DNA of 64,000 nt from Pycnococcus provasolii (Eukaryota; Chlorophyta; Pseudoscourfieldiophyceae; Pseudoscourfieldiales; Pycnococcaceae), in the NCBI GenBank assembly GCA_938743325.2, contig OW568874.1:620001-684000 (forward strand), read 5' to 3'. Of this stretch, positions 9,357 through 19,370 are shown piece by piece. Numbering within the stretch: the first letter of the stretch is position 1; each line of letters begins with the position of its first letter. Position numbers and translations under genes: made by a program. Below the pieces are notes generated by a model. That model had not been told where the DNA came from. It was given only the letters and a program-made list of their open reading frames with translations, and made no database searches.

Positions 9357-9612
9357 TTGTCCCAGTACGTACAAGGGTGTTGGTTGGATCTGCCAAGCTT
9401 GCGAGCTGGTACAGTTTGCCAAACCTCTAGCCCTAACCCTAACCCTAACCCTAGCCCTAACCCAGTCGGAGGTTTGGTAAACTGTACCACCTTCCCGGCT
9501 TGGCAGATCCAACCAACACCCTTGTACGTACAGGGACAAGCTGTGCTCCCAGAGTGGGCAATCGTGACAAAAACTGGAAAAAATAGTTATACAGTAGGAG
9601 GAAACTGCTCGC
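9357..9612 (+). mobile_element. Hairpin repeat element with CCCTAA loop, copy 1
   Basis: Two 71-base arms (9357-9427 and 9469-9539) are inverted repeats with about ten mismatches. Both contain TTGGTTGGATCTGCCAAGC or its complement. The 41-base loop holds about five CCCTAA/CCCTAG units, all in one direction. A right flank of about 73 bases (9540-9612, starting GCTGTGCTCCCAGAGTGGGC) is shared with a second copy at 19141-19370. No coding capacity. It resembles a foldback or non-autonomous element, but no target duplication was identified, so calling it mobile is an inference. Confidence 0.6.
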
Positions 9613-9780
9613 GTAAAGGTACCCGGTAGTACTTCTGACTTTGGGGGTGGTTCCTTGTCCATCACTTGCTTCAGATGGGTGGGGACGTTCACGGCGTCTT
9701 CATCGGCGTCGTCGTCTGCCTTTGTTGGCGATGGTGGTGGTGGTGAGAGCTCGTCATGTCCTGCTCCATGTGCTGAGGAG

Positions 9781-10897
9781 GCTGACAAGTTCAACAGCTT
9801 GAAGGAGGAGCTCGCCGAGCAGCGCGCGAAGCTCGCGCTCGTGCAGCTGCTCTACCACAAGAGCGAGCTGGCGGGCGTGCGGCTGGCGCTTGGGGTGGCG
9901 CAGGCATCGTGCGCGGATGTGCACGCGAGCACGATCGCGCGCCGCTCCAAAAGGAGCGCGACGACCAGACGGCGAAGCGCAAGAAGGTGCAGACGTCGAT
10001 GGCATCGGCGGAGAAGCGCCTGAAGGCGGTGGCGGCGGAGGTGGCGAAGCTGCGGCCAGCCAAGCTGCAGGCGAAGGAGCAGATGGCGCGTCTCGACAAG
10101 TTGACAAAAAAAAAATAAAAAAAGCGCTCAAAAAACGCGAGGAGGAGCTGGCGGCTCACAAGGAGGACGTCGCAAAATTGGAGACGGACCTCGGCAAGAT
10201 TCAGGATGCGCTCAATGAGCTGGACGCGAGCGCGTCGTCGGGTGACAGGTGACGTGCCGAAGCTGCAGGAGCAGCACGTCGCGGAGTACAAACGGCTGAA
10301 GCAGGTGGCGGGCAGCCGCACGTTCCGCCTCAAGCAGGAGATCGACACGCTGAAGCGCTCGCTCCAGGCGGCGGATGCCGAGAAGGCTCGCGTCGAGCAG
10401 CAGGCGGTGGACCTCGACGAGCAGGCGACACATCTCAGGCAGCGCAAGGAGAAGCAGGCGAAGGCGTCGGACGCACTGGCGTCGCAGAAGGCGGAATTTC
10501 GCGCATCGATGGACAGAATGCGCGCGGAGAAGCACGAGCTCGCGCAGCGCGCGGAGAAGGAGTCGAAACGGCGCAAGACGCTCGAGAGCAAGTGCGAGGA
10601 GCTCGAGGAGAGGTGCCGCGACGCGCGCGCGGACATGAAACTGAGCGAGGCGGAGCAGCAGCAGCGCCGTGCGCTAGACAGCCTCAGGCGGCTTCACCCG
10701 ACGACCATCTACGGGCGCATGACGGACTGCATCTCGGTGACGCAGAAAAAGTACCACATGCCCGTGACGGTGGTGATGGGACGCAACATGGACGCCATCC
10801 TCGTCGAAAAGGAGGCGACGGCGAAGAGTTGCATCACGCACCTTCGAGAGCAGAAGATGGCGCCCATGACCTTCCTGCCCGTGACGACGATCCAGGC
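9781..10897 (+). pseudogene. SMC1: Cohesin SMC1 fragment A (coiled coil to hinge start)
   Basis: The piece matches the SMC1 coiled coil beginning at ADKFNSLKEELAEQRAKLAL and runs into the hinge (LHPTTIYGRMTDC, GRNMDAILVE, MTFLPVTTIQA). The two hinge motifs IYGR and NMDAI are diagnostic for SMC1 over SMC3. The reading frame changes at least three times (near 9950, near the A-rich run at 10110, and near 10250). The Walker A head is absent, and at 10897 the sequence switches abruptly to a GTC run. This is a host gene relic, not a working ATPase. Its last 581 bases are repeated at 16568-17148. The 9613-9780 stretch upstream has no recognisable SMC sequence. Confidence 0.85.
10317..10897 (+). repeat. 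581-bp direct repeat, left copy
   Basis: Identical to 16568-17148 at a constant offset of 6,251 bases, apart from two substitutions I could find (CAAGCAGGAG versus CAAGCGGGAG; GTCGAAAAGG versus GTCGAAGAGG). The identity stops sharply at both ends. The two copies bracket 5.67 kb of unrelated sequence. Confidence 0.92.
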
Positions 10898-10900
10898 CAT

Positions 10901-10932
<32 letters not shown>

Positions 10933-16567: not shown

Positions 16568-17148
16568 CGCACGTTCCGCCTCAAGCGGGAGATCGACACG
16601 CTGAAGCGCTCGCTCCAGGCGGCGGATGCCGAGAAGGCTCGCGTCGAGCAGCAGGCGGTGGACCTCGACGAGCAGGCGACACATCTCAGGCAGCGCAAGG
16701 AGAAGCAGGCGAAGGCGTCGGACGCACTGGCGTCGCAGAAGGCGGAATTTCGCGCATCGATGGACAGAATGCGCGCGGAGAAGCACGAGCTCGCGCAGCG
16801 CGCGGAGAAGGAGTCGAAACGGCGCAAGACGCTCGAGAGCAAGTGCGAGGAGCTCGAGGAGAGGTGCCGCGACGCGCGCGCGGACATGAAACTGAGCGAG
16901 GCGGAGCAGCAGCAGCGCCGTGCGCTAGACAGCCTCAGGCGGCTTCACCCGACGACCATCTACGGGCGCATGACGGACTGCATCTCGGTGACGCAGAAAA
17001 AGTACCACATGCCCGTGACGGTGGTGATGGGACGCAACATGGACGCCATCCTCGTCGAAGAGGAGGCGACGGCGAAGAGTTGCATCACGCACCTTCGAGA
17101 GCAGAAGATGGCGCCCATGACCTTCCTGCCCGTGACGACGATCCAGGC
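16568..17148 (+). repeat. 581-bp direct repeat, right copy
   Basis: Right-hand partner of 10317-10897. The left edge is the dynein/SMC1 junction (TTTCTCGCACG at 16563-16573). The right edge is where SMC1 sequence continues normally in this copy, so this copy lies in its original context on the 3' side. Confidence 0.92.
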
Positions 17149-18345
17149 GAAGCAGATCGACGCGCGCCTGCGTTCGCTTGGCGGAACCGCGCGCCTGATG
17201 ATGGACGTCGTCACGCCGAACGCCGCGGCGGTGGCTGCGCACCCGAGCGCCGTCGACCTGAAGGCTAAGTTCGAGCGAGCTGCACGCTACGCCGTCGGCA
17301 ACACCGTCGTCTGCGACACTATCGACGAGGCGAGGCGCCTGTGCTTCGGCGGCGGCGCGTCCGCTGCTTCCGCCGGCAGCGCCGCCGCAGCGTCGGCACC
17401 GCCGCCGGGCCCTCGCATCAAGGCGGTGGACCTCGAGGGAACGAAGATTGACAAGAGCGGCGTGATGACTGGCGGAACGATGCACTCGCTCGCGAATCGC
17501 GCAGGACGGTGGTCCGAAGCGCAGTTCGAGGCGGTGCGCAAGGAGCGCACGGAGGCGGAGCGCGAGCTACGCAGCCTGCCCACCGCCGAGCAGCAGAAGG
17601 CTGCCCAGGACGACCTTGCACGGCGTGCCGCGAGCATTCAGCAGCAGCTCGGGTACGCCGAGAAGGATCTCGCGGAGGCTACCAAGACGCTTGAGACACT
17701 CGAGCGCGAGGCGGCGACGCTCGAGGAGGAGAAAAAAAAGCGCACGGCGGCACAGACGGAGAAGCATGCCGCGGAGTATGCCAAGGTGGCAAGCGAGGTG
17801 TCCGGCAAGGAAACTAAGCTGCGTGCCGAGCTCGACGACGTGTTTGGCGACTTTTCGCGCCGCGTGGGTGTCGCGAACATCGCGGAGCTCGAGGAGAAGC
17901 ACTTCTCGCAGGTGCAGGAGGTGGCGGCACAACGCACCAAGCTCACGAAACAGGTGGCGGCGCTGCAGACTCAGATTGAGTACGAGCGCAAGCGCGGCTT
18001 GGCGAAGAAGATGGAGGATCAGCGCGCCAAGCTTCTGGCGGACAAGAAGGAGGAGGACAAGCTCAGCGAGAAGGTGGAGAATGTGGAGAAGACGGAGCAG
18101 AAGCACGAGGCGGAGCAGAACGAGCTGTCGGAGAAGCTTCTGGCTCTCGGCAAGGAGACGGCGGCGCTCGATGCTGAAATTGCTGAGACGAAGAAGCAGC
18201 TAGCGGCGGAGCAGGCGAAGCTGGCAGGTATCAACCGCAGCATCACGAACATGCAGACGCGAGGCGATGAGATTGCAATGAAGGTGCGCGACGTGCTCGA
18301 GAACTGCGAGATGGAAAGCGTCGAGCTTCCGGCGGCTGAGTCGGA

Positions 18346-18370
18346 GGGGGGGGGGGGGGGGGGGGGGGGG
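18346..18370 (+). repeat. G25 homopolymer in SMC1 relic
   Basis: Twenty-five consecutive G bases encode polyglycine and separate two coding frames of the SMC1 relic. Homopolymers of this length are error-prone in sequencing and in replication, so the frame change here may not be real. Confidence 0.95.
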
Positions 18371-19140
18371 CGGGCGCGTCGGGAGGCGCTGGCACGAAGC
18401 GCGCTGCGAAGCGCGCGCGACGCGGTGCAGCTGCCGCTGCCGGTGATGCGGAGATGGCGTATGGCGACGAGCAGGCTGCGGCGGAAGGCACATTCGAAGG
18501 CGAGGCTGCGAACAACGCGCTGACGGAGCTCGAGCACTTCGAGTACACAGGTCTTTCAGGGGACGTCGCGGAGCTGTGCGCGTCTCGCCGCGCCGAGGTG
18601 TCGAAGGCGACGTCTTCCGAGGCTGAGCAGGATTTCTTGGCGCGCATCGAGAAGATGCAGAAGGGTGCTTCGAACCGCGTGTCGGCACTCAGAAGCCTTA
18701 GACCTAACCTGAAGGCTCGCGATGAGTACGAGTCGCTGAAGATGCAGGAGAGCGCAATGGCTACCGAGGCTGACGAGACGAAGAAAAAATTGAAGGCACT
18801 CCAGGAGGAATTTAGCGGCGTGCGCGAGGAGCGGAGCAACCGCATCTTGGATGCTTTCAACGCGGTGTCCGGCAAGATTGACGCAATCTACAAGGCGCTG
18901 ACCAAGTCGGCTACGCACCCGCTTGGCGGCTCTGCGTATCTGACGCTCGAGGAGCCTTTGCTTCGGCTGCCGCATCGTTGTCCATATAATTGTATTTGGA
19001 TACAACAACAGAAGAACCATATTTAATCGCTTTCGTTTTCAACGAGAGGTTTTCCTTGTTCGTGAGGTACCTCCAGCGCACTTCGTCCATTCGGTGTGGG
19101 ACGTAGTCAAGGTAGGGTCCCCACCTTGCCAGCCAATCCT

Positions 19141-19370
19141 GTATGTACAAGGGTGTTGGTTGGATCTGCCAAGCTTGCGAGCTGGTACAGTTTGCCAAAC
19201 CTCTAGCCCTAGCCCTAACCCAGTCGGAGGTTTGGCAAACTGTACCACCTTCCCGGCTTGGCAGATCCAACCAACACCCTTGTACGTACTGGGACAAGCT
19301 GTGCTCCCAGAGTGGGCAATCGTGACAAAAACTGGACAAAAATATACAGTAGGAGGAAACTGCTCGCGTA
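19141..19370 (+). mobile_element. Hairpin repeat element with CCCTAA loop, copy 2
   Basis: Same structure and orientation as the copy at 9357-9612. The arms are about 19141-19203 and 19227-19297 with a shorter loop (TAGCCCTAGCCCTAACCCAG), then the shared right flank (19298-19370), which reads into the 5' end of the Ulp1-like gene 47 bases further on. The arms here match each other slightly better than in copy 1. Could contribute promoter or 5' UTR sequence to that gene; this is inferred from position. Confidence 0.6.

Follow-up and report, generated by a model that had tools for sequence, protein, structure and literature searches.

We analysed a 64-kb window of the Pycnococcus provasolii genome (C14:620001-684000 in a 32.3-Mb, 46-contig assembly; positions in the window are written with the prefix w) that carries two copies of a hairpin-forming element, each with telomere-type repeats in its loop, on either side of a 10-kb stretch of mixed origin. 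An earlier note on this DNA had described two hairpins in the same orientation with CCCTAA-type loops, and both are present at the ends of the 10-kb stretch. The first, copy a (C14a), occupies w9338-9634 on the forward strand. Its left terminal inverted repeat (TIR), CAAGGGGAAC at w9338-9347 (+), agrees at 9 of 10 bases with that of a nested copy on contig C42 and is followed by a left arm at w9353-9427 (+), a 41-nt loop at w9428-9468 (+), a right arm at w9469-9543 (-) and a tail at w9544-9634 (+) that is common to copy b and other copies. The arms are 75 nt long and 89% complementary, and the loop consists of CCCTAA and CCCTAG units followed by CCCAGTCG. The tail ends in AGTACTT at w9634, where a right TIR is missing, and an alignment to C20 begins at w9635. 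The second, copy b (C14b), spans w19132-19376 (+) in the same orientation, with a left arm at w19138-19203 (+), a 23-nt CCCTAA-type loop at w19204-19226 (+) and a right arm at w19227-19292 (-). Its arms are 66 nt long, again with 89% complementarity; its left boundary lies within w19132-19138, and its right TIR is also missing.

The two copies have in common 139 nt at 97% identity and the last 28 nt of the tail. The hairpins fold as DNA with z scores of -11.5 (a) and -12.9 (b), and 0 of 200 dinucleotide shuffles folded as well for either. Seven inverted repeats with a gap of at most 300 nt were reported in the window, of which only these two exceed 40 nt. Because of the folding scores, the shuffles and the scarcity of long inverted repeats in the window, a chance origin of the hairpins is excluded. 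A candidate ACGTAGT/ACGCAGT duplication with a CAAGG terminus at hairpin b was dropped because C28 places CAAGGTAGGGTCCCCACCTT within the adjoining sequence.

Genome searches with arm, tail and unit queries found relatives at at least 18 places. Three of these searches scored every candidate (10, 9 and 12) and one further search scored the best 40 of 108, so its counts are lower bounds. The element is thus dispersed and not confined to this locus. Thirteen of the places carry arm or tail sequence: C14a, C14b, C2b (C2:1445109), C2x (C2:1424505), C2y (C2:1425418), C4, C12, C42, C31, C3, C28, C6 and a fragment at C16. The remaining five (C38, C23, C11, C5 and C7) carry only a core of ~117 bp, of which 88 bp are found at C38. 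Ten of the 13 have a telomere-type loop, which C2x, C6 and C16 lack; the telomere repeat of this genome, read at the end of contig C3, is TTAGGG. At C28 and C6 the unit occurs in head-to-tail arrays with a period of 146 bp. The places are not all independent. C14a, C2b, C4, C12, C2x and C2y are one site that was copied, because they have their flanking sequence in common, and C42, C31 and C3 are copies of one transposon.

The loop inverts between copies that have identical flanks. Read in the orientation of the tail, it is of the CCCTAA type in C14a and C12 and of the TTAGGG type in C2b, C4 and C2y. The copies at C4 and C12 match on the left flank (124/124), on the TIR side (15/15), in the tail (87/87) and on the right flank (655/655, with one gap column), whereas within the hairpin the left arms match at 73 of 75 positions and the loops are mutually inverted (6/23 matching) and of unequal length. 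The same comparison of C14a with C2b gave flanks of 138/138 and 651/653, right arms that differ at 7 of 75 positions, and a C14a loop that is inverted and 18 nt longer. At C2y, a broken-off right arm is joined to sequence like w28255-28643. That part of the window contains a TTAGGG tract, and its counterpart at C2:1425047-1425417 directly meets the broken arm.

Two families of P-like transposons bear on the origin of the element. The first is represented at C42:210105-215697 and C31:466833-472305 by copies of 5.5-5.6 kb that are 99.6-99.8% alike, have inverted termini CAAGGGCATATTAACG and are bounded by perfect 7-bp duplications, CGCTAAC at C42 and GCTTGGT at C31. The second has inserted into the first family's copy at C3, with the TIR CAAGGGGTTATTAC and the duplication CTTCAAC. 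A 7-bp duplication was therefore present at all three P-like insertions examined, a count that does not include the C3 copy of the first family or the short elements described below. The two families begin CAAGGGC and CAAGGGG. The genome codes for a P-type transposase: a 640-aa frame at C3 matches PF21787 above its cut-off (4.5e-10) and the Drosophila P transposase 6p5a (E 3.4e-5), and a 925-codon frame at C42 is homologous to it (2e-22). Seven paired TIRs of the first family measure 248 bp end to end (C31:427687, C31:285913, C28:346057, C14:111589, C13:631022, C9:647411 and C2:1174551) and are likely to be P-like miniature inverted-repeat transposable elements (MITEs).

The hairpin array at C42, C31 and C3 is a 342-bp insert with 10-bp inverted ends, CAAGGGGAAA, and at C42 and C31 it sits just inside the right end of the P-like transposon. 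It is flanked by CTTGCAA and CTTGCGA, a putative target duplication that matches at 6 of 7 positions. To gauge these features, 20,000 random segments of 342 bp, whose ends were allowed to slide, were sampled from the retrieved DNA and scored for 10-bp inverted ends together with either a 6-of-7 duplication or CAAGGG. Some pair of 10-bp inverted ends occurred in 287 segments; 25 passed in full, and all 25 fell on the three hairpin loci (13, 9 and 3). Among the hairpin copies, TIRs like those of the genome's autonomous P-like elements are found at the C42/C31/C3 array and, on the left side only, at copy a.

We consider it rather probable that the hairpins are non-autonomous, MITE-like foldback elements of the P superfamily that carry an interstitial telomere-type repeat in the loop. 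On this reading they transposed on at least one occasion, as a nested insertion, and were afterwards spread with transposons and by segmental duplication. A P-like transposase acting in trans would have moved them. Once inserted, a foldback could extrude as a hairpin or cruciform, and because of that extrusion its arms might convert or recombine and its loop might flip; ectopic recombination could then account for the loss of ends or flanks, including the termini of the window copies.

Several observations weigh against this interpretation. A right TIR is present in neither window copy, copy b has no recognisable left TIR, and the target-site duplications that the earlier note had proposed to look for were found at the outer flanks of neither copy. 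The 6-of-7 duplication around the nested array represents one event inherited by three copies. Searches with joined flanks for a contiguous empty site found none for the C42 array and none for copy a; none was found for copy b among the best 40 of 74 candidates, with a query whose boundary later proved wrong. The C42 frame falls just under the Pfam cut-offs for P-type transposase domains (24.4 against 24.8 and 21.8 against 24.6), and a PDB search with that frame alone found no P transposase. Finally, the ~117-bp core lies inside other repeats at C23, C11, C5, C7 and C38, with no hairpin or telomere loop, and because of this the core may be older than the foldback element or independent of it.

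The closest known system, judged by its published description, would be Galileo, which with Newton and Kepler is a foldback transposon of the P superfamily in Drosophila (PMC3573991, PMC2775673). Galileo is described as having 7-bp duplications and chimeric copies with non-matching 7-bp flanks (PMC3573991), as well as exchanged duplications and a middle segment that lies in opposite orientation between copies (PMC2775673), and it has been implicated in rearrangements by ectopic recombination (PMC3573991, PMC2775673). The P. provasolii elements would resemble it in their assignment to the P superfamily, their foldback structure, the 7-bp duplications (here those of the P-like transposons) and the inverted middle segment, and also in chimeric copies with unmatched 7-bp flanks and a part in rearrangements. 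They differ in size: Galileo TIRs are given as ~0.3-1.2 kb and nearly complete copies as 5.2 kb on average (PMC3573991, PMC2775673), whereas the elements here are ~0.25-0.34 kb. They also have the terminus CAAGGG where an end is kept, and the passages on Galileo in these two papers mention no telomere-type loop. As to the long TIRs that make up most of a Galileo-like element, the hairpin core here consists of arms of 66-75 nt, with a ~90-nt tail outside the right one that breaks the continuity between arm and element end.

The P-element MITEs described in Anopheles gambiae are likewise short, with P-like ends and an unrelated interior, but their duplications are 8 bp instead of 7 bp, and the description mentions no long telomere-repeat hairpin (PMC1562414). 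In yeast, interstitial telomeric tracts are reported to promote rearrangement (PMC11626172) and hairpin-forming repeats to mediate foldback inversions (PMC7467729); as described, these are experimental systems with no transposon context. The telomere-type loop is the unusual part of the element, and no case with telomere repeats was found in the open-access titles and abstract openings searched on foldback, MITE and P elements. If the P-superfamily reading is correct, the foldback design of Galileo would extend, in miniature and with an invertible telomere-repeat loop, to another eukaryote. The natural pairs C4 and C12, and C14 and C2, could serve to measure the destabilising effect of DNA hairpins and interstitial telomere tracts on a genome.

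Of the other explanations, the one that survives best, though we hold it unlikely, is that the hairpins are scars left by a telomere that snapped back. An end of the core sequence capped with telomere repeats would have folded on its G-strand overhang and primed a copy of its own subterminal part, leaving an inverted duplication with loop repeats that run one way, which transposons later captured and duplication spread. The loop repeats are in fact unidirectional within each copy, and the repeat-core join CCCTAACCCAGTCGGAGG (0-1 mismatch) occurs at exactly the 10 telomere-loop places (9 perfect, 1 with one mismatch), several of which are one site copied. The length of the left arm also depends on context: 75 and 66 nt and, by eye, ~33 nt at C28 and ~11 nt at C42. 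However, the orientation of loop against tail is the predicted one in C14a, C14b, C12, C28 and the C42 group but is reversed in C2b, C4 and C2y, and a different subtelomere is present at the C3 end and the C7 start, the two telomere-bearing contig ends read. Tracts that match the loop only occur elsewhere without hairpin arms, and snap-back accounts for neither the TIR nor the duplication seen in the C42 group.

Next in standing, and also doubtful, is the view that the hairpins are passive inverted-repeat scars that have no transposition of their own and spread by segmental duplication and ectopic recombination. The copying of one flank-sharing site to C14a, C2b, C4, C12, C2x and C2y fits such a history, as does the lack of a duplication at either window copy. 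It does not readily accommodate the C42/C31/C3 array with its TIR and imperfect duplication, nor the fact that the carrier transposon took the array to different sites with different 7-bp duplications.

A more elaborate variant of the P-superfamily reading, which we rate as improbable, gives the foldback its own invertible telomere seed. The loop would be kept because telomere proteins bind it, or because telomerase lengthens it when the hairpin breaks; breaks at the element would then be mended and inherited instead of lost, and transposition, loop inversion and end healing would be coupled. Slimmer still is the chance that misjoins in the assembly lie behind hairpin b or the orientation of the loops. 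Assembly is difficult for hairpins and for duplicates that are almost identical, and contig C2 ends inside a repeat common to the window, but hairpin a recurs with both of its near flanks at C2, C4 and C12, on separate contigs. Least probable by far is the composite mobile or amplifying unit that the earlier note saw between the two hairpins, since the same-orientation copy at either end, and an arm variant (CCACCTTCCCGG) common to a and b and absent from C2b, C4 and C12, are set against inner blocks that differ in their partners and boundaries, no duplication found outside, and no hairpin-to-hairpin block found at any other locus.

The 10-kb stretch is better described as a patchwork of its own, made up of segmental duplications; on the preferred foldback reading, the hairpins would be passengers in it and occasional breakpoints. 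The stretch does not appear to be one unit because its larger pieces each have relatives of their own in other places, and no other locus found shares a block bounded by two hairpins; this corrects the notion of a 10-kb mobile unit. The duplicated blocks either run through hairpin a or cover interior parts. The match through hairpin a, w8756-13344 with C2:1444514-1449081, includes the left flank of copy a (w8756-9337), which at C2 lies just beyond open SMC1-like frames. To the right of copy a, w9635-9771 (+) recurs at C20:540098-540221 (92%), where the left neighbour differs. It is followed by a first SMC1 fragment (w9772-10897, +), 97% identical to C40 and two C2 loci, by a shortened and internally deleted copy of a long-TIR transposon (w10895-12785) and by a 69-bp minisatellite (w12831-13344). 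A block with a dynein heavy chain fragment (w13345-16567, +) comes next, and w13345-16559 corresponds to C2:1246685-1249899 at a listed, rounded identity of 100%. The second SMC1 fragment (w16568-18953, +) matches C40 and two C2 places, and its first 581 bp repeat w10317-10897. The last piece is a repeated, possibly coding fragment (w18988-19131, -) with a relative at C28 (91%) and, for part of its length, at C27 (98%); it is cut at hairpin b and continues beyond the cut at both C27 and C28.

The idea that the region is a recombination hot spot fared better than that of a unit, in part. Hairpin copies do lie at junctions of unrelated sequence (C14a, C14b, C2y and C6), and loops are flipped and arms diverged where flanks are identical, but the interior junctions at w9771, w10897, w13344, w16567 and w18953 are away from the hairpins.

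The gene pieces that the earlier note listed between the hairpins (SMC1, dynein, the MGCGAS protein and a Pro-rich transmembrane protein) are all present, but the last two are parts of a transposon and not loose host fragments. They belong to a dispersed element of ~4.2 kb with long TIRs, and the part of the query from about position 1280 was found at at least 10 places besides the window and the end of C2 (best 40 of 60 candidates). A fuller copy at C13:~172293-176510 has long TIRs that begin GAGGGGGATAATGGCGG and carries Pro-rich transmembrane, cupin and MGCGAS frames, and for this reason we take these frames to be cargo of the transposon. The length of the TIRs suggests a Mutator-like element (MULE). 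The C13 copy has a putative target duplication of 9-10 bp. In the window, a perfect 22-nt palindrome with a 1-nt loop lies at w12511-12555, where the sequence corresponds to the terminal repeats of this long-TIR element.

An SMC hinge domain was recognised within w16544-18523. Open SMC1-like frames are found at C2:1426248-1430345, C2:1440138-1444340 and C40:41157-45188, and the second of these matches SMC1A (cohesin) in the PDB with an E value of 1.5e-143. Three open copies are unusual for a core cohesin gene. The two C2 frames (C2:1426248-1444340) are in inverted order and flanked on the outside by hairpin copies, and the third is at C40. The best PDB match of the dynein fragment (E 5.3e-222) is a chain of 8glv labelled only as an AAA+ ATPase protein, and the next is axonemal heavy chain 6 (6e-190). 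Entry 8glv is presumably a Chlamydomonas axoneme, which we take as a hint only.

Open frames with INT_rpt-like repeats lie on both outer sides of the hairpins. On the left is a 1207-codon frame (w5622-9245, -) with two such repeats at its C-terminus, and on the right a 1363-codon frame (w19372-23463, +) with INT_rpt-like repeats, a Ulp1 (C48) protease domain and an Arm repeat. Their earlier description as phage-integrase-type repeats finds slight backing, in that PF14882 was matched in the right-hand gene below its cut-off (E 4.8e-5; 24.0 bits against 26.5) and was not matched in the left-hand gene. INT_rpt-like repeats form a large host family with 163 matches in the genome, and because of this the presence of such a gene on either side is not telling. 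The 5' ends of INT_rpt frames are near hairpin copies at C14a, C14b and C28. A role of the hairpin as a promoter or leader module of these genes was rejected in view of two contexts: at C6 the array is joined, at the equivalent of w20347, to the inner part of a gene homologous to the right-hand one, and at C42 it is inside the transposon.

Two further candidate identities of the hairpin were rejected. It is not a structured RNA known to Rfam, which gave 0 matches at gathering thresholds in the window; on six loci there were only matches below the gathering score, mostly to microRNA families, and ARAGORN found no tRNA at seven loci. Nor is it a chromosome-end repeat at the two ends read, the C3 end and the C7 start, where it does not lie beside the telomere arrays. 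At the C7 start (C7:1-1200), ~330 bp of other sequence lie outside the telomere array, and the subtelomere that comes after the array is, judged by eye, common to the C3 end.

The whole 22-kb region is enclosed by a 1.19-kb inverted duplication (w1905-3089 and w25243-26428, 99%). The end of contig C2 is the same sequence, and for that reason C2 probably stops at this repeat. The frame at w24684-26453, which has matches to SUEL lectin, laminin-G-like and TPR, is overlapped by a 329-bp tandem repeat (w26098-27760; 5.1 copies, 99% matches), the two together covering w24684-27760.

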